From positions 53,948 to 117,947 of the IMG/VR virus record IMGVR_UViG_3300025423_000009: a DNA stretch of 64,000 nucleotides, one strand, 5' to 3'. The translations under genes and the position numbers were made by a program. The notes under the pieces are model-generated. The model was not told the origin of the DNA. It saw only the letters and a program-made list of their open reading frames with translations, and searched no databases. This stretch comes from a virus. Shown here piece after piece: positions 11,978 through 41,313 of this stretch; positions within the stretch are counted from its first letter, which is position 1, and each line of letters opens with the position of its first letter.

Positions 11978-13510
11978 TCAAAGCACTCCATTTTGCTTCA
12001 ATTGTTCAATCTTTTTTACAATAATTTCACGTTTTCTTTTTAATGAAAGGGTTTCATTTTTTGCGAGTTTTCTTTTAGTATACAGCTCCTCAACCAGAGT
12101 CGGAATGATGCCCTTCACGTCCTTTCGAAAGCACGCTCCGTTGGCCGCAACACAGACTCCAGGATCCTCGTCGAAGAGCGGCTTACCGGTCAACACGGCA
12201 TCGATGATCTGATTCGGATCGACCTTCATCGTCACGTGCGAGATGTAGGTTTCCGGAGACATGTTGTACTGCACGATGAGATTGGGATACTCCGAGTTGA
12301 TGTCACATGAGAGCACCCACTCATGCATTCCTTGCTGAACGTCCTTGACGTATCCACCAGCAAACTGAGGCACATGAGATGGAGGCTCGGATTGAAAGGG
12401 AACGACGACATTCCTATTGGCCAGCTTTCGAAAGATGATGGAATCCCAGATCGCCGTGGTTCCCAAAGTGTCCGCGTAATTCACACCACCCATGTATGAC
12501 ATCATCATCACAAGTTGAATCAGACCGAGCTTCTCTTCGAGGCGATCTACGAGCTCCACGTCTTTTATGTTGTACTCCAAAAATTTTTGATGATCCGCAT
12601 GATAGAGGTCATCGAGAGTGCCTTCATATTCCAACTTGCTTTCGTCAAGAACAACCTTGGCGATGTGATCGAGCGTGTATTGTTCCTGAGCACCATACGT
12701 GTAGCCAAACTTCTGAAAGAGATCCATGTAGTCAAGCTGTTGAATGCCGACGAGCTCATACATCAGCTGCATGCGACCTTTGAGCTTTACTTCCTTGGAT
12801 TCAATGATGTTCCAGGGACTTAGCATCTTCGAAGCCTCTTCTCCACCAAGCTTGGAGATTCGAGTGGCCAGATACGGCACGTCGAATGCACGGGTGTTCC
12901 ATCCGGTGATGATGTCTGGCGAGTTATCCGGATGAATCCACCAGCGAAGAAAGTCCTCGAGCATCTGACCCTCGGTTTGAAACTGACGATAGTCGATCAT
13001 ATATCGAGACGTCTTGCAGAGTGAAGGATCAAAGGCCTTGAGTCCCCAAGTGTGGCACGTATTATCCGTCGAACACTTGACCGTGATCGCGACGATGGGA
13101 TTCTTGGCTTCCGATGCCTCCGAGTAACCCCAAGCTTCCTTACCAACCTCGATGTCCAACGTGCACGTACGAATCAGCGACTGCTGATAATGAATGCTCA
13201 GAGGAAACTGAGCTTGAATAAATGCCGGAACGTGACGATCATTGCCATAGATCTTGAAGGATGGCACGTGCTTATACGTCTCCACGAACTTACGGCATTC
13301 CGACATAGAGTCAAATTGCATAGGTTCGACTGGAGTTCCGTCGAGTCCTTTGAATTTCGTCTTTGATGGATCCTTGGCTTCAAGGTACATGGTCGGACGA
13401 AAACGAACCTTCTCCTGAACTCTCTGACCGTTACGATCATACCCACGAATCAGGAGCGAGTTTATAGAACGGGCGATCGATGTGTAGAATGCGAGGTCTA
13501 GTTTGGCCAT
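11978..13510 (-). CDS. 43A: DNA polymerase gp43, N-terminal half (3'-5' exonuclease and palm motif A)
   Basis: 510 residues covering the N-terminal, exonuclease and first palm segments: ExoI TLDIEVG (Asp119, Glu121), ExoII GWNTRAFDVPYL (Asn205, Asp210), ExoIII YNIKDVELVD (Asp317) and polymerase motif A SCDINSEYPNLI (Asp403), with Glu where most enzymes have Leu. It stops in the fingers after ELYTKRKLAKNETLSLK and an AT-coded helical tail. Split gp43 at the fingers is known from some Aeromonas T4-like phages; here there is no insert gene. A 12-bp hairpin lies 22 nt before the start. Confidence 0.92.
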   Translation of the reverse strand: MAKLDLAFYTSIARSINSLLIRGYDRNGQRVQEKVRFRPTMYLEAKDPSKTKFKGLDGTPVEPMQFDSMSECRKFVETYKHVPSFKIYGNDRHVPAFIQAQFPLSIHYQQSLIRTCTLDIEVGKEAWGYSEASEAKNPIVAITVKCSTDNTCHTWGLKAFDPSLCKTSRYMIDYRQFQTEGQMLEDFLRWWIHPDNSPDIITGWNTRAFDVPYLATRISKLGGEEASKMLSPWNIIESKEVKLKGRMQLMYELVGIQQLDYMDLFQKFGYTYGAQEQYTLDHIAKVVLDESKLEYEGTLDDLYHADHQKFLEYNIKDVELVDRLEEKLGLIQLVMMMSYMGGVNYADTLGTTAIWDSIIFRKLANRNVVVPFQSEPPSHVPQFAGGYVKDVQQGMHEWVLSCDINSEYPNLIVQYNMSPETYISHVTMKVDPNQIIDAVLTGKPLFDEDPGVCVAANGACFRKDVKGIIPTLVEELYTKRKLAKNETLSLKRKREIIVKKIEQLKQNGVL

Positions 13511-13532
13511 TGAACGGATATCTTAACGCAAG

Positions 13533-13572
13533 ACGGGGACGAAGTACACATAAAAGTTTCCTTCGTCCCCGT
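13533..13572 (-). promoter_or_regulatory. strong hairpin in the gp43 leader
   Basis: Perfect 12-bp stem (ACGGGGACGAAG at 13533-13544 with CTTCGTCCCCGT at 13561-13572), 16-nt loop, ending 22 nt before the gp43 ATG. No U-tract follows. T4 and RB69 gp43 repress their own mRNA through a leader hairpin, so an autoregulatory operator is a reasonable guess; an RNA-stability or attenuator role is also possible. Confidence 0.55.
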
Positions 13573-13598
13573 TTGATTTACGATTCAAGAAGCTTTCG

Positions 13599-13653
13599 TT
13601 TTAGGAAAACCGTTCGTTTTAATGGCTCACTAAAACATAGGCTTTTCCTAAAA
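13599..13653 (-). terminator. nested hairpin after hsp20
   Basis: 11-bp stem TTTTAGGAAAA/TTTTCCTAAAA (13643-13653 and 13599-13609) enclosing a second stem GTTTTA/TAAAAC (13616-13621 and 13631-13636), 13 bp after the hsp20 stop. The A/T-rich arms could act as a terminator or 3'-end processing signal. Confidence 0.45.
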
Positions 13654-13665
13654 TCAAGGTTTCCT

Positions 13666-14094
13666 TCAACCCTTCAGACACTGTTTATCAGCATTGATGG
13701 AGATCTTCTTGGGCTTGAGTTCATCCGGAATATTATGAATCAGCGTGATCGACAAGACACCGTCAATGAAGTCCGCGGACTTGACCTCCACGTGTTCGGC
13801 CAGCGTGAACTTCTTCGTAAAGTCTCGACGAGAGATTCCCTGATGAAGAGTCGCGGACTTGAGAGAGCTTTCGTTGAGGCCCTTGGTGCCGGAGATCGAT
13901 AGTTCTCCATTATGAACTTCAATTGAGATCTCTTTCTGCTTCCATCCGGCCAAAGCCAGATCAACACGATACTCATGATCCGAGATCTTCAGCACGTCGT
14001 GTGGAGGATAGGTTTGAATGTTGGACCAGTTTTCCGTCTCGAGGAGATCGAAGAGACGATTGAACCCGATGAAGTAATGACGAGGATACTGCAT
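13666..14094 (-). CDS. hsp20: small heat shock protein (Hsp20/alpha-crystallin)
   Basis: ATP-independent holdase chaperone. From Met at 14094 (MQYPRHYFIGFNRLFDLLE), preceded by a clear Shine-Dalgarno GGAAAGGAAAG, it is 142 residues. Alpha-crystallin domain: HEYRVDLALAGWKQKEISIEVHNGELSISG, GISRRDFTKKFTLAEHVEV, SADFIDGVLSITL; the C-terminal KPKKISI is the I-x-I-type anchoring segment. T4-like cyanophages carry an hsp20 near the replication module. A late-type TATAAATA lies at 14203, about 110 nt upstream, so it may be expressed late for virion folding. Confidence 0.93.
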   Translation of the reverse strand: MQYPRHYFIGFNRLFDLLETENWSNIQTYPPHDVLKISDHEYRVDLALAGWKQKEISIEVHNGELSISGTKGLNESSLKSATLHQGISRRDFTKKFTLAEHVEVKSADFIDGVLSITLIHNIPDELKPKKISINADKQCLKG

Positions 14095-16728: not shown

Positions 16729-16736
16729 TATTTATA
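16729..16736 (-). promoter_or_regulatory. late promoter, 7 nt before the fusion protein start
   Basis: TATAAATA followed by GGAACAA and the ATG at 16721. The predicted start of transcription falls at or next to the start codon. Confidence 0.75.
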
Positions 16737-17225: not shown

Positions 17226-17639
17226 CTACTTTCCACCTGTATCGAGTGAACGAGCGATAGCTTTGAGCTGATCATCGGAGAGAAGATCAGCGACCTGACG
17301 AGCCTTCTCAGAAGAGTATCCATAAGCTTTCTTGATTAGATCTATGGAATCGGACGGCTCGTTCTTGAGCCACTTGGAGAAGCGTTTACGAGGACGAATC
17401 GAGTTGCGTAGGAATTCATACTGAGCTCGAGTCGGAATCGTTGGTCGTTGATTCATCTCATTGGCAAGCAGAATCGTATCAGAGAACCATGAGAGGCTGC
17501 GATTACACATGAAGGGAACATATGCCTTCTCCTCCGTCGTCGGATCGGCAAAGAGATCCTTTCCGCGGCTTCCTTCATTGATCGAGTTGAGGAAGTCGAA
17601 GAATGATAGTTTTTTGGATTTGGATTCAGTCACATTCAT
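17226..17639 (-). CDS. 62: clamp loader small subunit gp62
   Basis: 137 residues, T4 position between gp44 and RegA. LSFFDFLNSINEGSRG, then YVPFMCNRSLSWFSDTILLANEMNQRP, QYEFLRNSIRPRKRFSKWLKNEP: the pattern shared by gp62 of T4-like phages. It forms the 4:1 gp44/62 complex that loads the gp45 clamp on primed DNA. Start overlaps the stop of the 50-residue gene upstream as ATGA, so three genes (gp44, small protein, gp62) are coupled. Confidence 0.88.
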   Translation of the reverse strand: MNVTESKSKKLSFFDFLNSINEGSRGKDLFADPTTEEKAYVPFMCNRSLSWFSDTILLANEMNQRPTIPTRAQYEFLRNSIRPRKRFSKWLKNEPSDSIDLIKKAYGYSSEKARQVADLLSDDQLKAIARSLDTGGK

Positions 17640-20723: not shown

Positions 20724-21689
20724 TCACGCCTCAATGAGCTTATACTTCTTGCCATCAATCTCGATAAGCTTGCCAACACATGAGGATTCAGGCTTCGATT
20801 CTTTCTTTGGAGCGGGAACGATGACAAGCTTACCGTAACCCACATCACCAATAAATGTAGCGCATTGAATCTCATACTTGTCGATCGCGCATTTTTCATA
20901 TACGTTAATTCCAGCGAAAACCGTCAGGCCAGCATTGATGCCCTCGCCAGCCTTGATGCCCTCGCCAGCATTGATGCCACAGCCAGCCTCGATGCCCGTG
21001 CCAGCCTTGATGCCCCAGCCAGCCTTGATGCCACAGCCAGCCTCGATGCCACAGCCAACATCGATGCCCCAGCCAGCCTCGATGCCACAGCCAACATCGA
21101 TGCCCCAGCCAGCATTGATGCCCGTGCCAGCCTTGATGCCCCAGCCAGCATTGATGCCACAGCCAGCCTTGATGCCATAGCCAGCCTTGATGCCCCCGCC
21201 AGCATTGATGCCCCAGCCAGCATTGATGCCCTCGCCAGCCTCGATGCCCCAGCCAGCCGTGATGCCCTCGCCGGCATTGATGCCATGGCCAGCATTGATG
21301 CCCTCGCCAGCCTTGATGCCCCCGCCAGCATTGATGCCCTCGCCAGCCTTGATGCCCTCGCCAGCATTGATGCCATGGCCAGCATTGATGCCCTCGCCAG
21401 CCTTGATGCCCCCGCCAGCATTGATGCCCCAGCCAGCATTGATGCCCTCGCCAGCCTCGATGCCACAGCCAGCCTTGATGCCACAGCCAGCATTGATGCC
21501 CCAGCCAGCATTGATGCCACAGCCAGCGCCAAAAACTATGCTTCCGGTACAGCTTATGCCTTTATGGAAACGAATGACTCCTAGATCATCATCAGACGTA
21601 ATATGCCCATCGAAGTTTTCAAGATTCTGAGCACCGACATAGAAGTTGTTCTCGTCAAGGTGACTTTTAGCAATAGCGAATGTTTTCAT
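20724..21689 (-). CDS. G-x-G-I-x-A hexapeptide repeat protein
   Basis: 321 residues. An N-terminal domain (1 to about 50, KTFAIAKSHLDENNFYVGAQNLENFDGH) leads into some 34 uninterrupted copies of a six-residue unit, G-I-(N/K/E)-A-G-x, where x is mostly W, C, E, G, T or H, then a C-terminal part (VYEKCAIDKYEIQCATFIGDVGYGKL) with ESSCVGKLIEIDGKKYKLIEA at the end. The regular period suggests a solenoid or beta-helix. The repeat has open frames on several strands, which are by-products. Function unknown; a surface, adhesion or ice-binding-like role is possible. Confidence 0.75.
   Translation of the reverse strand: MKTFAIAKSHLDENNFYVGAQNLENFDGHITSDDDLGVIRFHKGISCTGSIVFGAGCGINAGWGINAGCGIKAGCGIEAGEGINAGWGINAGGGIKAGEGINAGHGINAGEGIKAGEGINAGGGIKAGEGINAGHGINAGEGITAGWGIEAGEGINAGWGINAGGGIKAGYGIKAGCGINAGWGIKAGTGINAGWGIDVGCGIEAGWGIDVGCGIEAGCGIKAGWGIKAGTGIEAGCGINAGEGIKAGEGINAGLTVFAGINVYEKCAIDKYEIQCATFIGDVGYGKLVIVPAPKKESKPESSCVGKLIEIDGKKYKLIEA
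20930..21541 (-). repeat. 18-bp tandem repeat array inside the hexapeptide gene
   Basis: About 34 tandem 18-bp units on the plus strand, CCAGC(A/C)TTGATGCC(C/A)xxG-like. Third-position and x-codon changes differ between units, so the array is diversified rather than freshly expanded, except for near-identical longer blocks (for example around 21265-21320 and 21340-21395). Confidence 0.85.
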
Positions 21690-21739: not shown

Positions 21740-22951
21740 TCACCGCTCAGCGTTCGATTCAGTGACTGGTGGTGGAACGGGCGTGGACGAAGGAATGATC
21801 GACGGATCGATCTTCGTGTAGAGATCCATGAAAGCCGCCTTGGTGTCAGAGTCGAATCGTGAGATGCACAGCTGAATCGATTCCATGCGCTCACCAAAGA
21901 TCGCAAACGACTTGACGATGTGACAAAGACGGCGAGTCGAAATGACTTCTTCGATGGCGTCCTGCTCGAAAGTCTTGCGAATGACTTCCGACCAGTCACA
22001 GAGCTTGGTGGCGAAATCCTCGTCGATGCGACCGAACTTCTCCATGTGCTTGAGAACGATCTTCTTCTCCGTATACTTCGGAGCGTATGGCTGCTCGATT
22101 GTGGCCACGAAGCGTTCGAGGAAAGCCTCATCGATGATCGTTGCGGCCGCGAATCGGCCGTCGTCGGAGCCGCGACCCTTGGTGTTGGCCGTCGCGATGA
22201 CGTTGAAACCTTTGGCCGGATGAATCACCTGACCGGTCTTCTTGATGAGCACCGGATTGCCTTCGAGGACGCCTTGCAGGCACATAATTTTGTTCGAACC
22301 ACGATCGATCTCGTCGATGAGCAGAAGGCATCCACGTTCCATGGCCTTGATGACCGGACCTTTGCAGAAGACGGTCTCACCGTTGAGAAGACGAAAACCG
22401 CCGATCAGATCGTCCTCGTCCGTCTCAGGCGAGATCTGCACGCGAATATATTCGCGCTTGAGCTTGGCACAGCATTGCTCGACCATCTTGGTCTTGCCAT
22501 TGCCGGACAGGCCGGAGATGAAGAGCGGAAAGAAGAGCTCCGAAGCGACCGCACGAAGCACCGTGTCGTAAGCGCCCCAGCGCACGTAGGTTGGATCGAT
22601 CTCGGGCACATATGCGTCCGCGGACATAATTGATTGAACTCCGGCCGACATTTGAAAGGCGAGTGACGGCACCGTGGGAGCCATCGGAGCGGGCGACGAA
22701 GTGGCCGCTGCCGGAGCCGGTGAGTGAGTTGGAGGGATCACGGTGCCGTCAAGACGAGCGAAGAGCTGAGCAAGATCATACTTGCCACGGCCGATGTTGA
22801 ACTCGGACCGCATGAGCACTTCGTAAATTTGATTCCAAGTGAAGCCGTTGGCTCGCGCCACCTGCTTGATGTGTTCGGAGGTGTGAATTGTGCCGGCGCT
22901 CGAGCCCTTGAGCTGAGCCAGCGTTTGATTGATTTTAGCTTGTTCGATCAT
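21740..22951 (-). CDS. cobS: MoxR/CobS-type AAA+ ATPase
   Basis: 403 residues. After an N-terminal helical domain and a Pro/Ala linker (about 73-93) comes the AAA+ core: Walker A SGLSGNGKTKM, TDEDDLIGGFRLLNGETVF, Walker B CLLLIDEIDRG, sensor FNVIATANTKGRG and FLERFVATIEQPY. CobS-like genes are common in T4-like cyanophages. The neighbour upstream encodes a VWA protein, the usual MoxR partner, so the two probably act as a remodelling machine on an unknown target rather than in cobalamin synthesis. It has its own promoter (22958-22985). Confidence 0.88.
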   Translation of the reverse strand: MIEQAKINQTLAQLKGSSAGTIHTSEHIKQVARANGFTWNQIYEVLMRSEFNIGRGKYDLAQLFARLDGTVIPPTHSPAPAAATSSPAPMAPTVPSLAFQMSAGVQSIMSADAYVPEIDPTYVRWGAYDTVLRAVASELFFPLFISGLSGNGKTKMVEQCCAKLKREYIRVQISPETDEDDLIGGFRLLNGETVFCKGPVIKAMERGCLLLIDEIDRGSNKIMCLQGVLEGNPVLIKKTGQVIHPAKGFNVIATANTKGRGSDDGRFAAATIIDEAFLERFVATIEQPYAPKYTEKKIVLKHMEKFGRIDEDFATKLCDWSEVIRKTFEQDAIEEVISTRRLCHIVKSFAIFGERMESIQLCISRFDSDTKAAFMDLYTKIDPSIIPSSTPVPPPVTESNAER

Positions 22952-22957
22952 GATATA

Positions 22958-23029
22958 ATTCTATCAAGTATTGTCGGTTTGTAAATAAAAAAGTGATGGA
23001 GTATTTGATTGCAAATCAGCTACTTGCAC
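22958..23029 (-). promoter_or_regulatory. promoter plus upstream palindromic box for the MoxR gene
   Basis: -35 TTTACA (22980-22985), 16-nt spacer, -10 TAGAAT (22958-22963), then 6 nt and the ATG at 22951. 23 nt upstream of the -35 is a 21-nt box (23009-23029) with arms TGCAA/TTGCA separated by 9 nt. The same elements at the same distances precede the VWA gene. Confidence 0.7.
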
Positions 23030-23033
23030 AAGC

Positions 23034-25304
23034 TTAGGCAATTTGAGCCGCGAACTTGTTGAGGAGAATGCGAGAATTGCGCTTGTCGGAATTGAATTTC
23101 GTGAAGGCTCGTGACATTTTGGACGTCGTCATCTTGGCATCAGAATCGGATTCCGGATCGAATGATTCATCGTCCGTGATGACGAGGTCGCTCGGAGTGC
23201 CGAGGACGTAGTAGGCATCGAAGCCAAAGCCACCACGAATCTCGACGAAATGTTGCTTGCGATAGGCTTTCTTGAGATTCTCCAGAAGTTCCTGTGTCTC
23301 GGAGCTCGAGTTGCGTTTGAGACCACGCAAAGCACCATTCACTTTCGTCATGGCCAGTTTCTCACTTCCAGGAACGAAGAAGCAAGTGACCGTGCAGTTG
23401 CAGGTCTCACGAAGAGATTCGATGAGCTTATCGTAGTTGCCGGAAAAGCCATAAGTCAGATCGATTCGACGGCCATTGATGATTCCGGTATATTTGCTAT
23501 TGATGGACGGCTTCTGACCAAGCTTTTCGGCAACATCGGAGTTGTAAACGTAATTGAGGCCACTGCCGTCACCGTCCGTAAGAAAGAGCACACTGACCTT
23601 CTGAACCGGATTGACCTGACGAAACTGACGAACCAGAACGTGAGCCGCAACGATCGCCTCGAGGAGAGGAGTGCCACTAAGCTCTTCAAGCTTACTCGTA
23701 ACCGGACAATTGTAGTTGCTCAATGGATTGTATACAATCGCGTCGACGCGGTAGCCTTTACGCCAGGCCACATGTGTCAGAGTCTCGGAGACGGCCAATT
23801 CGAACTCGGCCTTGCTCATCTTGCTCGAGAAGATCTCGATCATTTGAAGGTCTTCGATTCGAATCTCATCGTGAGCCTGAGCGGCGAGAATGGCCGGCTT
23901 GGAGACACTTGGATTCGTGAAGCCAAGGACTCGAAAGGGAATGTTTAGAGAGCGGCAGAACATCACCAGATTGACCGTGTGTTCGAGGACCGTGCCGAGC
24001 ACAGTATTCATTGAAGATGAGTAGTCGACAAAGAACACCATGCCATGATTCTTGGCATCGGCCAAGCGTGTCGCGGACTTGAATATATCGTCCGCATACT
24101 TGTAGCTGTGCAAACGATTGACATTGATGATGCCGGTCGAGGACACCGTAGCACGAGAATATTGATAAGCCGCCTTGCGCATGTTGAACTCGGTGGCCAG
24201 AGTGGCCACGTACTTCTTGGCCTTGGCACGGAGTTTAGTCACCTCGGTCTGCACACCAGCATCGGCCATGTAGCACGCATAGCCCGGGCACTTGGCACGT
24301 TCGGCCATCACTTCGGAGAATGGAATGATCAGGCTCTCGATCGTCTTTGTCGAAGGCATCGAGAAGTGACGATTGCCGTCGTTAACCGCCATGTCTTTGA
24401 CGGCCTGCTGAAGCGCTTGCTCGGTCTGAGAAGTGAGCTCGGAGATGAGATCACTATAGTCCTGCTGATCGTCACTTTGACTGGACGTTGAATTGTTGCC
24501 GTCGACTTCTTCGGATTGATCGCTTTCGGTCTGAGCGGATGAGGTGGTGCGTTTTGCCTCGGCTTCGTCACCAGAATCGGCTTCGTCGGCCTTGTCGTCG
24601 GATGAATCGGCTTCGTCACCAGAATCGGCTTCGTCACCAGAATCGGCTTCGGAAGGCTGATCGGCCGTAGGATGCTGAGGAGCATCGGCATCCGGCTTAC
24701 TGGAAGGTGTCGGCTGCTTGGATTGTTGAGATTGCTTGCCGACGAGTTCGGCCAGTTCCTTGCAGACGGACAGGACGTCGTCAAAAGTCTGAGCGGCCAT
24801 TGCCTTGTCGTAAATCACCAACTCCGAAGCCGTCAGAGGAACCTGAACGGCGCCGCGAGTCTTGGCATGGATGTTGAGGCGATCGGCCACGTTGAGGGAC
24901 GCCAGATCTTTGCCTTTGATGCCAAAGAAGTCATCGGCCACGAACTGAGCGTATGCGGCACGAAAGGTGGAAGACAAGCCAGGATATGTGTCTTGAATCA
25001 TTCGCTCGATGCGAATGTCCTCGACGATGTTGCAGATCGAGAACGGAACGCCGGGAAGGGCATCATGAAAGCGAGTGTGACCATTGGCCGGCGTATAGAG
25101 AGCATGGCCGACTTCGTGGCCACAAAGCAAATCATATACGTTCTTGCCTTTATTCTGCCAGAGGGGAAGGCCAAGCACACGATGCTTGACATCGAAATAT
25201 GCCGTCGTGTAGTTGCCGTGCTGAATCCGGACGTTTTCCTTGGCCAGCAGCTTGGCGAGCATGCCTTGCTGTTCCAGATTTACGGCTTGATGTTGTTCGA
25301 TCAT
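23034..25304 (-). CDS. cobT: zincin-VWA protein (CobT-like), partner of the MoxR ATPase
   Basis: 756 residues. The N-terminal metallopeptidase-like region has CGHEVGHALYTP (HExxH) and NIVEDIRIERMIQ (possible third ligand). A long acidic linker (about 205-275) carries repeats of EADSGD. The C-terminal VWA domain has FFVDYSSSMN (MIDAS DxSxS) and VLFLTDGDGSG. The plan matches CobT/VWA proteins that pair with MoxR ATPases, as seen in T4-like cyanophages. The intact HExxH suggests it may be a real protease driven by the ATPase. Both genes begin ATG-ATC-GAA-CA. Confidence 0.82.
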   Translation of the reverse strand: MIEQHQAVNLEQQGMLAKLLAKENVRIQHGNYTTAYFDVKHRVLGLPLWQNKGKNVYDLLCGHEVGHALYTPANGHTRFHDALPGVPFSICNIVEDIRIERMIQDTYPGLSSTFRAAYAQFVADDFFGIKGKDLASLNVADRLNIHAKTRGAVQVPLTASELVIYDKAMAAQTFDDVLSVCKELAELVGKQSQQSKQPTPSSKPDADAPQHPTADQPSEADSGDEADSGDEADSSDDKADEADSGDEAEAKRTTSSAQTESDQSEEVDGNNSTSSQSDDQQDYSDLISELTSQTEQALQQAVKDMAVNDGNRHFSMPSTKTIESLIIPFSEVMAERAKCPGYACYMADAGVQTEVTKLRAKAKKYVATLATEFNMRKAAYQYSRATVSSTGIINVNRLHSYKYADDIFKSATRLADAKNHGMVFFVDYSSSMNTVLGTVLEHTVNLVMFCRSLNIPFRVLGFTNPSVSKPAILAAQAHDEIRIEDLQMIEIFSSKMSKAEFELAVSETLTHVAWRKGYRVDAIVYNPLSNYNCPVTSKLEELSGTPLLEAIVAAHVLVRQFRQVNPVQKVSVLFLTDGDGSGLNYVYNSDVAEKLGQKPSINSKYTGIINGRRIDLTYGFSGNYDKLIESLRETCNCTVTCFFVPGSEKLAMTKVNGALRGLKRNSSSETQELLENLKKAYRKQHFVEIRGGFGFDAYYVLGTPSDLVITDDESFDPESDSDAKMTTSKMSRAFTKFNSDKRNSRILLNKFAAQIA

Positions 25305-25310
25305 GTATAC

Positions 25311-25382
25311 ATTCTACAGCAGAATGCCGGAATGTAAACAAAAAAGTGCTAAAATATCTCGTTGCAAATCAGCTACTTGCAC
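25311..25382 (-). promoter_or_regulatory. promoter plus upstream palindromic box for the zincin-VWA gene
   Basis: -35 TTTACA (25333-25338), 16-nt spacer, -10 TAGAAT (25311-25316), 6 nt to the ATG at 25304. The 21-nt box at 25362-25382 is identical to that at 23009-23029 and lies the same 23 nt from the -35. Six bases after the -10 leave almost no leader. Confidence 0.7.
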
Positions 25383-25390
25383 ACGGACCG

Positions 25391-27106: not shown

Positions 27107-28177
27107 CTATTGAGTTTCTCCGGACTGTGCCTCAACGTAGAGCTCGCGAATCATGGACTTCATGCGTTCCTTGTCCAGATCGGTCTCCACGGAATCTATG
27201 TAGGTGTTCAGGAGCTTGGATGTATCCTCCAAGTCAATCGCATCATCTTCGACCTGAGTTCCAGCAAACTCATCGAAGGATTCAACGATCTTGGGTTGCT
27301 CCAGTGGTCCCATGTCCTGAATTCGCTGAATGAACTTCTCGAACTGTTTGATGTTGGATCGCTTGACGACCACGACCTTGACGAACTTGTCACGAACCAT
27401 TTCCGTGTCCAGTGTTTCATTTGGATCAGACTTCGAGTCATCATAGATCAATCGACTGTACAAAGTCAGAGGATTTCTGATCTGTGAAAGCTCGCGAGTG
27501 GCCGTGTCGAGGACATGAAAATACTTAGGATCATTGCAGTCGGCCCAGGTTTGTTCCACCTGTGTACCCAAGTAGTAGATGTTGCCACGAGTCGACTTGG
27601 TGTGATAGTGACCAGAGAGGACCATCTCAAATCGCTTAAAAAGATCCGGATTCATGCCATGTGAGGCACCAGATTGACCTTTGGCCATCTCGAATCCAGC
27701 AAGCTCCAGATGTGACATTAGAATCGGAGCCGTGCACTTGGAAAGGAATTCGAGAAACTCATCACAATTGGATTCGGAGATCCATGGAAGGAAAGCAATG
27801 GGAAGGCCGTCAAATTCTTGAATTGTCGGCTTCTCGATGATCTTCACGTTCTCGATGTAATAGCCAAACATCTCACGAAGGGAGGATACGGCATTCGAGT
27901 TCTTGTAGTAAACATCATGATTGCCTGGAATGATCGTCATCGTCATTCCTCGCTCGGTCAATGGTTCAAGAAAACTCTTACGTGCATTATGCAAAGCCCG
28001 TATATTGATGCCACGGCGATTGTCGAAGTAGTCACCCAGATGAATCACGTGCTTGATTCCATGCCGATCACAGAATGGAAAGAATACTTTCGAAAAGAAT
28101 TGATTCAGATGATCCATGTACGGCTCAGAGCCGTTACGCAGATCGACGTGAGTGTCATTGATGATGGCGATTCGCAT
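27107..28177 (-). CDS. 47: recombination nuclease gp47 (SbcD/Mre11-like)
   Basis: 356 residues from MRIAIINDTHVDLRNG (an in-frame Met at 28201 is less likely). Calcineurin-like phosphoesterase motifs: INDTHVD, HLGDYFDNRRG, IPGNHDVYYKN, MSHLELAG and LSGHYHTKS, giving the two-metal site. Forms the nuclease complex with gp46. Starts 11 bp after gp55 ends. Confidence 0.95.
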   Translation of the reverse strand: MRIAIINDTHVDLRNGSEPYMDHLNQFFSKVFFPFCDRHGIKHVIHLGDYFDNRRGINIRALHNARKSFLEPLTERGMTMTIIPGNHDVYYKNSNAVSSLREMFGYYIENVKIIEKPTIQEFDGLPIAFLPWISESNCDEFLEFLSKCTAPILMSHLELAGFEMAKGQSGASHGMNPDLFKRFEMVLSGHYHTKSTRGNIYYLGTQVEQTWADCNDPKYFHVLDTATRELSQIRNPLTLYSRLIYDDSKSDPNETLDTEMVRDKFVKVVVVKRSNIKQFEKFIQRIQDMGPLEQPKIVESFDEFAGTQVEDDAIDLEDTSKLLNTYIDSVETDLDKERMKSMIRELYVEAQSGETQ

Positions 28178-29431: not shown

Positions 29432-29439
29432 TATTTATG
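29432..29439 (-). promoter_or_regulatory. late promoter box, 5 nt before the Sm-like gene
   Basis: CATAAATA, then CTTTC and the ATG at 29426; the box overlaps the 3' end of the uvsW C-terminal gene. Confidence 0.6.
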
Positions 29440-30355
29440 AGATCGGCACTTCATGCACCTCAAAGTCAAATTTCTCTTTCGTATAGATCTTGGCGCGCTC
29501 GATGCCGTGAGTCAGCGTGTAGTTCTTCTGGCCCTTTCTCGAGAGATCGTCGGCGATGTCGTATACGGTCGTTGAACGTTCATCCTTGGTCTTTCTGAGA
29601 CCACGGCCGATCGACTGAAGGACTCGCACCTGTGACTTGGTCGGAGAAGCAAAGACGATGTTGTGCAAATTCTTGATGTTGATTCCGGTCGAGAATGTAC
29701 CAAACGAGGCGATGATGACGGAGCCTTCCTCCTTCTCCACCAGGCCGCGGATCCGTTCACGCTCGTCGGCATCTACCTCTCCGGAGACGAAGTAGACTTT
29801 TCGCTTGGTGTCCTTCAGCTTCTTCTTGACGGCCTCGAAGAGAGGCTCTCCATGCTTCTCGACAAACTGATACAGAATCAGACTATTGCCCTTGAGATCC
29901 GCGACCAGGTTCGTGATGAAGCGATTGCGTGGCTCATATGACGTCAGAAAGTCGAGCTCGTCCTGATAATCGAGGGAATCGTGCTCCTTGCGAATTGCCT
30001 CGGGATACTTCAGCACGAGCATGTGAATCTTCAACTGAGCCAGAACATCCGCGTCGATGAGCTCATGTGTTGTCGTCACCTGATAGGTCGGACCGAAGCA
30101 TCCTTCGAGCACCAGCTTATTGACCTTGGCATCCTCACCTCCCGGAAGCGTACCGGTCGTTCCGATGCGGAACCAAGCGTTCTTGAGCCAGCTCATGATC
30201 TTGGTCAGTGAAACGGCCTTGAACAGATGTGCCTCATCGCCAAAGACACCACCGAACTGCTCGAACCACTTGGGCCCCATGGTAACGGCCGACTGCCAGG
30301 TCGTGATGATCACCGGTGGATCTACTTCTACTTTTTCAATCTTTCGAATTTTCAT
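29435..30355 (-). CDS. uvsW-C: UvsW helicase, C-terminal half (motifs II-VI)
   Basis: 306 residues: PPVIITTWQSAVTMGPKWFEQFGGVFGDEAHLF (motif II DEAH), GTTGTLPGGED (motif III), then helicase domain 2 with KVYFVSGEVDADERERI, IASFGTFSTGINIKNLHNIVFA and QSIGRGLRKTKDE (motif VI). UvsW unwinds branched DNA and R-loops and promotes the switch from origin- to recombination-driven replication. The ATP-binding half is a separate gene ending 63 bp upstream, in the same frame. The first 10 residues (MKIRKIEKVE) resemble the start of a split-intein C fragment. SD-like AGGTAGAG precedes the start. Confidence 0.9.
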   Translation of the reverse strand: MKIRKIEKVEVDPPVIITTWQSAVTMGPKWFEQFGGVFGDEAHLFKAVSLTKIMSWLKNAWFRIGTTGTLPGGEDAKVNKLVLEGCFGPTYQVTTTHELIDADVLAQLKIHMLVLKYPEAIRKEHDSLDYQDELDFLTSYEPRNRFITNLVADLKGNSLILYQFVEKHGEPLFEAVKKKLKDTKRKVYFVSGEVDADERERIRGLVEKEEGSVIIASFGTFSTGINIKNLHNIVFASPTKSQVRVLQSIGRGLRKTKDERSTTVYDIADDLSRKGQKNYTLTHGIERAKIYTKEKFDFEVHEVPIS

Positions 30356-30418
30356 AGAATACTCTACCTAATTTCCAGATCGAAACATCAATTGTTTCAG
30401 GTTTCATAAGTTTTGAAA

Positions 30419-31177
30419 TTATATCAAATCATCTTTTAACGTAAGGTCTTTCGCTTTCTTCTCACCAAAACGTGTTGATACTATATCATTCGGTGATAGT
30501 ATTCTAATTGAACCATCTTCCAAAAAAACCTTTACTTTTTCTTTTTTAGGATCTTTATCTTCTCCACCCATCAAAATGCTTATTGAAGAGTCAGCGTCGA
30601 AAGATGCATCTTCAGATGAATAATTTGAAAAATCATTTTGCATTTGAAGAACTAAACTTCGGGTAGGAACGATGACGATTGCCTTCTTCGAAGAACCTTT
30701 GAGATGATTCAGATACCATCGTAGAAGCTGATAGATGATCAGAGACTTACCAGAACCGGTCGGGGAAACCAGAAGGATCTTCTGAAGCTTGATCGCACGA
30801 TCTATGGCATCTTTCTGGTAATCCCTTAGCTCGAGCGGCTTATCGTCCGCCCCGGTGGCCGCATAAAGGCCTTCAGACGCTTCGGATTCAGCTTCTGAGA
30901 GGTCGGGAAGCCACAGCCCTGGTGCCAGTTCAAGTTCGTGTTTCCGTGAGTCCGCGTACTTCTGAAGGTGATGGAGCAGACCGGCCGGAAGAGTCTGATT
31001 ACGAAGATTGAACAAATGTATACGCCCATCCCATTGCCGACGCTTGAAGGCCGGAGAGAACTGATATCCGGCCGCAAAGAACGAGAAGAACTCAGATAGC
31101 TCCTGAAGGACTCCGGAATCCTCACAGGTCACGCGAAGGTGTGCCTGATCGATCGAATTGACGTGTATGATGGCCAT
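30419..31177 (-). CDS. uvsW-N: UvsW helicase, N-terminal half (motifs I, Ia) with an extra tail
   Basis: 252 residues. N-terminal UvsW accessory domain (HVNSIDQAHLRVTCEDSGVLQELSEFFSFFAAGYQFSP...KRRQWDGRIHLFN), Q motif LRDYQKDAIDRA, Walker A SPTGSGKS (138-145) and VIVPTRSL. The match to T4 UvsW ends near MGGEDKDPKKEK (about 214). The last 38 residues (VFLEDGSIRILSPNDIVSTR...KDLTLKDDLI) are not UvsW; they resemble the end of a split-intein N fragment. The tail is AT-rich. Both halves are needed for an active helicase. Confidence 0.88.
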   Translation of the reverse strand: MAIIHVNSIDQAHLRVTCEDSGVLQELSEFFSFFAAGYQFSPAFKRRQWDGRIHLFNLRNQTLPAGLLHHLQKYADSRKHELELAPGLWLPDLSEAESEASEGLYAATGADDKPLELRDYQKDAIDRAIKLQKILLVSPTGSGKSLIIYQLLRWYLNHLKGSSKKAIVIVPTRSLVLQMQNDFSNYSSEDASFDADSSISILMGGEDKDPKKEKVKVFLEDGSIRILSPNDIVSTRFGEKKAKDLTLKDDLI

Positions 31178-41184: not shown

Positions 41185-41313
41185 ATGCAGCACAATCATA
41201 TCTATCGCCCCTACAGGGATGGCCATCAGGTCGATCCTTCACGCTCTATTGCTATACGTAAAGCAAAAGCGGAATTCAAAAATGAGAATCTTTTACAATA
41301 TATTCAACTGTAG
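41185..41313 (+). CDS. 42-residue plus-strand protein
   Basis: Starts MQHNHIYRPYRDGHQVDPSR, continues with a basic helix (IAIRKAKAEFKNENLL), stops at 41313, 9 bp before the convergent terminase stop. Shine-Dalgarno AAAGGA 5 nt before the ATG and a late-type promoter upstream. Its first residues resemble the start of the homing endonuclease at 42919-43680 (MHIYRHPSHE), whose leader is also similar, so the two share an ancestry. Function unknown. Confidence 0.5.
   Translation: MQHNHIYRPYRDGHQVDPSRSIAIRKAKAEFKNENLLQYIQL

Follow-up and report, generated by a model that had tools for sequence, protein, structure and literature searches.

The window analyzed here is a 64,000-nucleotide stretch, bases 53948 to 117947, of the 117,947-base IMG/VR record IMGVR_UViG_3300025423_000009, which is a fragment and whose source is an uncultured T4-like phage. 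Two minus-strand genes lie at the locus. One encodes a MoxR/CobS-like AAA+ ATPase of 403 amino acids (positions 21740 to 22951; PHROG 249, E value = 3.6e-105; Pfam AAA_5), equivalent to the CobS-like protein of T4-like cyanophages, and the other encodes a CobT-like zincin-VWA protein of 756 amino acids (positions 23034 to 25304; PHROG 459, E value = 1.8e-165; tblastn matches to 463 phage records). The latter is named "peptidase" in cyanophages, and its translation contains the zincin motif HEVGH and the VWA motif DYSSS. The nearest relatives of these proteins are found in cyanophages, a Pelagibacter phage, and phage C48C1, with identities ranging from about 30% (VWA protein) to 57% (MoxR), and the gene order gp55-gp47-gp46-peptidase-CobS-gp45 is common to this phage and cyanophage S-H38. 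On the minus strand, the end of gp46 is followed by an upstream box, a promoter, and the zincin-VWA gene, the end of which is followed in turn by a second box, a promoter, and the MoxR gene, such that each promoter stands directly after the stop codon of the preceding gene. Elsewhere in the window, the UvsW helicase is present as two open reading frames (29435 to 31177, minus strand), an N-terminal one at 30419 to 31177 (UvsW_N, ResIII) and a C-terminal one at 29435 to 30355 (Helicase_C), a state that represents a split gene, an insertion, or a frameshift.

Re-reading of the sequence bore out the earlier note's description of both promoters as an identical upstream box followed by TTTACA, 16 nt, TAGAAT, 6 nt, and ATG-ATC-GAA-CA. 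The two boxes are identical over 22 nt (TGTGCAAGTAGCTGATTTGCAA), located 23 nt from the -35 hexamer, and the two genes share the start ATGATCGAACA. At the MoxR promoter, the box TGCAAGTAGCTGATTTGCA, with the conserved core CAAGTAGCTGATT, occupies positions 23010 to 23028 (identity from 23030 to 23009, minus strand); after 23 nt it is followed by the -35 hexamer TTTACA at 22980 to 22985, itself preceded by the T-rich, UP-like stretch CACTTTTTTA, and after a further 16 nt by the -10 hexamer TAGAAT at 22958 to 22963, which carries TGA just upstream (an extended -10) and is separated by 6 nt from the ATG at 22951. The zincin-VWA promoter, also on the minus strand, has the same 19-mer at 25363 to 25381 (identity from 25383 to 25362) and, at the same spacings of 23, 16, and 6 nt, TTTACA at 25333 to 25338 with the T-rich, UP-like GCACTTTTTTG before it, TAGAAT at 25311 to 25316, and the ATG at 25304. 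The spacers between -35 and -10 and most of the 23-nt interval are unlike between the two promoters, and the repeat pair as a whole (22940 to 23030 and 25293 to 25383) is 75% identical. No further exact match to TTTACA-N15 to N18-TAGAAT was found on either strand of the 64-kb window. Inspection of the box by hand gave no fit in any register to the 15-bp G...C pattern of a Fis site, and its 5-bp stem, without a GC-rich hairpin, is not that of a transcription terminator.

Across the 118-kb record, the 19-mer box occurs in four exact copies, all on the coding strand and with the same interval to a promoter in each case. No additional site was found in the record at up to three mismatches, and a reversed-pattern control gave 0 matches; the four copies are therefore not attributable to chance. 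Those outside the window, at record positions 13783 and 17314 (minus strand), show the same -35/-10 arrangement and precede TGTACA-16-TAGAAT and TTTACA-17-TATTAT, respectively, with the ATG 9 nt past the -10 hexamer. The genes that they serve encode a 249-amino-acid repeat protein, related to the product of window positions 20724 to 21689, and a 133-amino-acid protein without a family. The earlier note had proposed a whole-genome search for the box and had taken the box to be a site dedicated to the MoxR and zincin-VWA proteins; in the record each copy stands before a promoter, but the box is not confined to these two genes, and since two exact copies precede unrelated, distant genes, it is not a private switch of the pair. 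The related repeat proteins (window 20724 to 21689 and record 12954 to 13703, minus strand) both begin with MKT and contain many six-residue repeats (GINAGW/GIKAGE) with an 18-nt period in the DNA, and one of the two is under a boxed promoter.

At record position 41233, a position weight matrix scan recovered a fifth promoter, which shares the T-rich stretch and the -35 and -10 hexamers of the others but lacks the box. This promoter is nearly identical to one on the related contig L458, in which the box is intact, except for a 13-bp deletion that removes the box core; moreover, its ATG is now ATA, and the homology with L458 stops at the start codon, after which a different gene follows. This indicated that the promoters move as cassettes and mark gene borders. 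An extended -10 (TGn) is present in three of the five copies (MoxR and record positions 13783 and 41233) and not in the zincin-VWA copy or the copy at 17314.

The seventh base after the -10 hexamer, where transcription is predicted from the spacing to begin, is the A of the ATG in both window genes and lies 3 nt before the ATG at record position 13783 and in the VWA gene of the related contig L009. The promoter anatomy thus agrees with the earlier view that there is no room for a leader, although this is a genome-wide habit: no excess of Shine-Dalgarno sequences was found in this phage (5 of 136 genes versus 7 in shuffles), and in its 19 T4-type late promoters on the coding strand (TATAAATA) the ATG is mostly 12 to 24 nt from the promoter start, which together make the missing leader a general style and not a property of the pair. 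The late-promoter sequence was found separately from the box, so that the box is not itself a late promoter. Short-leader or leaderless mRNAs are predicted throughout this T4-like phage, with late promoters at, for example, window positions 16736, 31660, 38256, and 54745; two others at record positions 28171 and 28272 (minus strand, outside the window), about 100 bp apart and followed by the same sequence TATAAATAAGATCAAATGAAATCTCTCAATGAATCGATCA, represent a recent local duplication. Other phages with the box often carry Shine-Dalgarno-like sequences.

The MoxR and VWA genes of related contigs retain boxed promoters, with box variants such as TGTAAGTAGCTGATTATCA, TGCAAGTAGTTGATTTTCA, CGCAAGTAGCTGATATTCA, and TGCAAGTCGTTGATACACA. 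The gap, measured between the last base of TGAT and the -35 hexamer, was exactly 29 in all four record copies and in most relatives, while the intervening DNA diverged. The element YAAGTNGYTGATW was kept at gap 29 in L009 (two genes), L011, L015, L120, L449, L456, and L458 and at gap 30 in L118; part of these gap-29 relatives were selected by a fixed-gap pattern, and the contigs fetched as MoxR relatives give support that is independent of this selection. The arms TGCAA/TTGCA, which the earlier note had considered a recognized palindrome, are present in all four record copies, but in relatives the right arm varies (TATCA, TTTCA, ATTCA, ACACA, TGACA, or TTCCA) while YAAGTNGYTGATW is retained, and the palindrome as a recognized feature was not sustained. 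The claim of selection on the box, the spacing, and the hexamers held up, both from the constancy of the gap despite divergent DNA and from the phased version of the element in other phages (below). We regard it as very well founded that these promoters form a family whose upstream element is under selection. A separate group of contigs (L443, L444, L446, L447, and L454) carries TAAGTCGTTGATA boxes at gap 29 with the ATG about 6 nt past the -10, likewise leaderless in form.

A first scan of IMG/VR in which the gap was allowed to vary gave gap peaks at 19 and 29; further peaks at 36 and 40 were discounted as mostly related coding sequences or repeats. With a stricter box, the scan yielded at least 65 nonredundant promoters, with gaps of 19 to 20 (at least 22 promoters), 29 to 31 (at least 14), and 39 to 40 (at least 16). 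The phasing among these promoters was strong near 10.5 bp (R = 0.71), and none of 5,000 uniform simulations was as strong. Among the matches listed, 53 of 65 promoters had, within 60 nt, a sequence resembling a Shine-Dalgarno site, in keeping with real gene starts. The box was in forward orientation 71 times and in reverse orientation twice, among loci partly selected by the forward motif. Contigs retrieved solely as relatives by MoxR (our own record included) supplied 132 promoters; in 12 of these, the integration host factor (IHF) consensus, with at most one mismatch, occurred at gap 19, 29, or 39 (expected, 0.33; maximum, 2 in 100 shuffles), and in none did it occur in reverse orientation at these gaps. 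These uncultured phages thus provide a natural spacing experiment, in which about 19, 29, or 39 bp separate the element from the -35 hexamer and intermediate distances are rare, and such whole-turn spacing is the signature of a factor bound to one face of the DNA. That the box is helically phased with the -35 hexamer is, in our judgment, hardly in doubt.

The published IHF consensus is TAAnnnnTTGATW (PMC10380432), and the box motif equals it in sequence and orientation. Against WATCAANNNNTTR (reverse complement, YAANNNNTTGATW), the window boxes agree at eight of nine specified positions, with C for T (CTGAT), and the core of the MoxR-promoter box has one mismatch to YAAnnnnTTGATW; in other phages, many copies agree at all specified positions. 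We found no IHF or HU gene in the record, and a host factor is therefore expected; the record is, however, a fragment that may lack a phage regulator gene. On this resemblance, IHF is the probable binder of the box. The four central bases, which are free in an IHF site, are not free in the phage boxes: the first is G in 76 of 101, the second T or C in 87 of 101, and the fourth A or G in 79 of 101, a bias to GTNR/GCCA. Because this is tighter than the IHF consensus, another protein could be the binder; as the bias characterizes the set of phage sites and is compatible with IHF binding, we limit the claim to an IHF-type site.

Such a protein might be a sequence-specific activator, encoded by the phage or of other host origin, that acts from about -60, -70, or -80 on the same helix face, like CRP at class I promoters, with the resemblance to IHF sites partly a coincidence. 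The whole-turn spacings found here are those of a class I activator site, and the constraint on the central bases (GTNG, GYNR) goes beyond the IHF consensus. The module also appears to be phage specific, since 257 Gb of bacterial genomes gave only 23 matches, flat in spacing and mostly apparent chance or coding, which likewise sets aside an operator of host chromosomes; a blastn search of 50,697 phage records for the module in cultured phages returned chance matches only. However, many phages are involved and no shared regulator is known, a box can match the IHF consensus at each of its nine specified positions, orientation included, and IHF sites at host promoters need not have the central bases of the phage sites. 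We consider such an activator unlikely, though a serious alternative to an IHF-type site.

The identity of the copies could also be neutral, the result of recent duplication of a promoter cassette by recombination. The copies at window position 25381 and record position 17314 are identical over 49 nt from the box to the -35, and cassettes do move, as the end of homology between L458 and record position 41233 indicates. Copying accounts for the spread of the promoters but not for the constraint on them: core and gap are kept in divergent relatives while the DNA between changes, and the 10.5-bp phasing extends over at least 65 nonredundant promoters, which makes a purely neutral origin improbable. 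The idea that a dedicated operator, the palindrome TGCAA-N9-TTGCA, keeps the MoxR and VWA proteins in step fits its presence at both adjacent partner genes but is contradicted by the extra copies that drive unrelated genes and by the unconserved arms, and it can be given almost no weight.

T4 early promoters are used by the host sigma70 RNA polymerase and comprise UP, -35, TGn, and -10 elements (PMC2988021). The boxed promoters resemble them in belonging to a T4-like phage, in their sigma70 hexamers at 16 to 17 bp, in the TTTAC of the -35, in the TGn of three of the five copies, and in the A/T-rich upstream stretch, and they serve genes of the replication module, their early timing being assumed; they differ in the box at a fixed phase and in mRNAs predicted to be leaderless or nearly so. 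No enrichment of an IHF-type box was found at promoters of T4, JS98, and a cyanophage, indicating that the element is not a general trait of T4-like phages, and in cyanophage S-H38 a sigma70-like promoter was seen by eye before both the peptidase and CobS genes, without the box. Phage promoters assisted by IHF include lambda pL and Mu Pe, single promoters with an IHF-type site upstream, at which bending delivers upstream DNA or the alpha C-terminal domains to the polymerase. Like them, the promoters described here are strong phage promoters preceded by a (putative) IHF-type site; unlike them, they repeat a single module before several genes and across many phages, at spacings that differ by whole turns. 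Arbiol et al. (2010) reportedly described mobile regulatory cassettes of T4-type phages that carry a terminator stem-loop. The boxed cassettes similarly mark recombination boundaries at gene borders, but they have an IHF-type box and no terminator stem-loop.

We propose that the phage carries copied sigma70-type promoters with a phased IHF-type site through which DNA bending activates transcription, a model that we consider probable as a whole from the sequence comparisons. Each would be a strong, probably prereplicative host sigma70-type promoter (-35 TTTACA/TGTACA, -10 TAGAAT). Besides a T-rich, UP-like stretch, it would carry an IHF-type site that lies some 70 bp before the transcription start and whose orientation and helical phase are fixed. 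The core would be bound by host IHF, or by a bending protein like it, and the DNA would be bent sharply; only with the bend on the right helix face would upstream DNA be wrapped back onto RNA polymerase and promoter use be raised. That the effect is activation and not repression is likely, judged solely by promoter position and strength. Transcription would begin at the ATG or within a few bases of it, and by copying or exchange the module would have come, as a cassette, to stand before at least five of the phage's genes, including those for MoxR and the zincin-VWA protein.

These results correct the pair-specific reading of the box. More tentatively, they may point to a promoter class that is widespread among uncultured aquatic phages and has yet to be described, with an upstream YAAGYNRYTGATW, spaced from the -35 hexamer in helical-turn steps that vary among phages, coupling transcription to a DNA-bending factor. 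If so, the strict extra bases would reflect either a conserved phage-specific activator or a specialized IHF readout not known from E. coli. Where expression data are absent, the element gives a tag by which one class of phage promoters can be searched for, and it leads to the testable claim that takeover by these phages depends on a host architectural protein.
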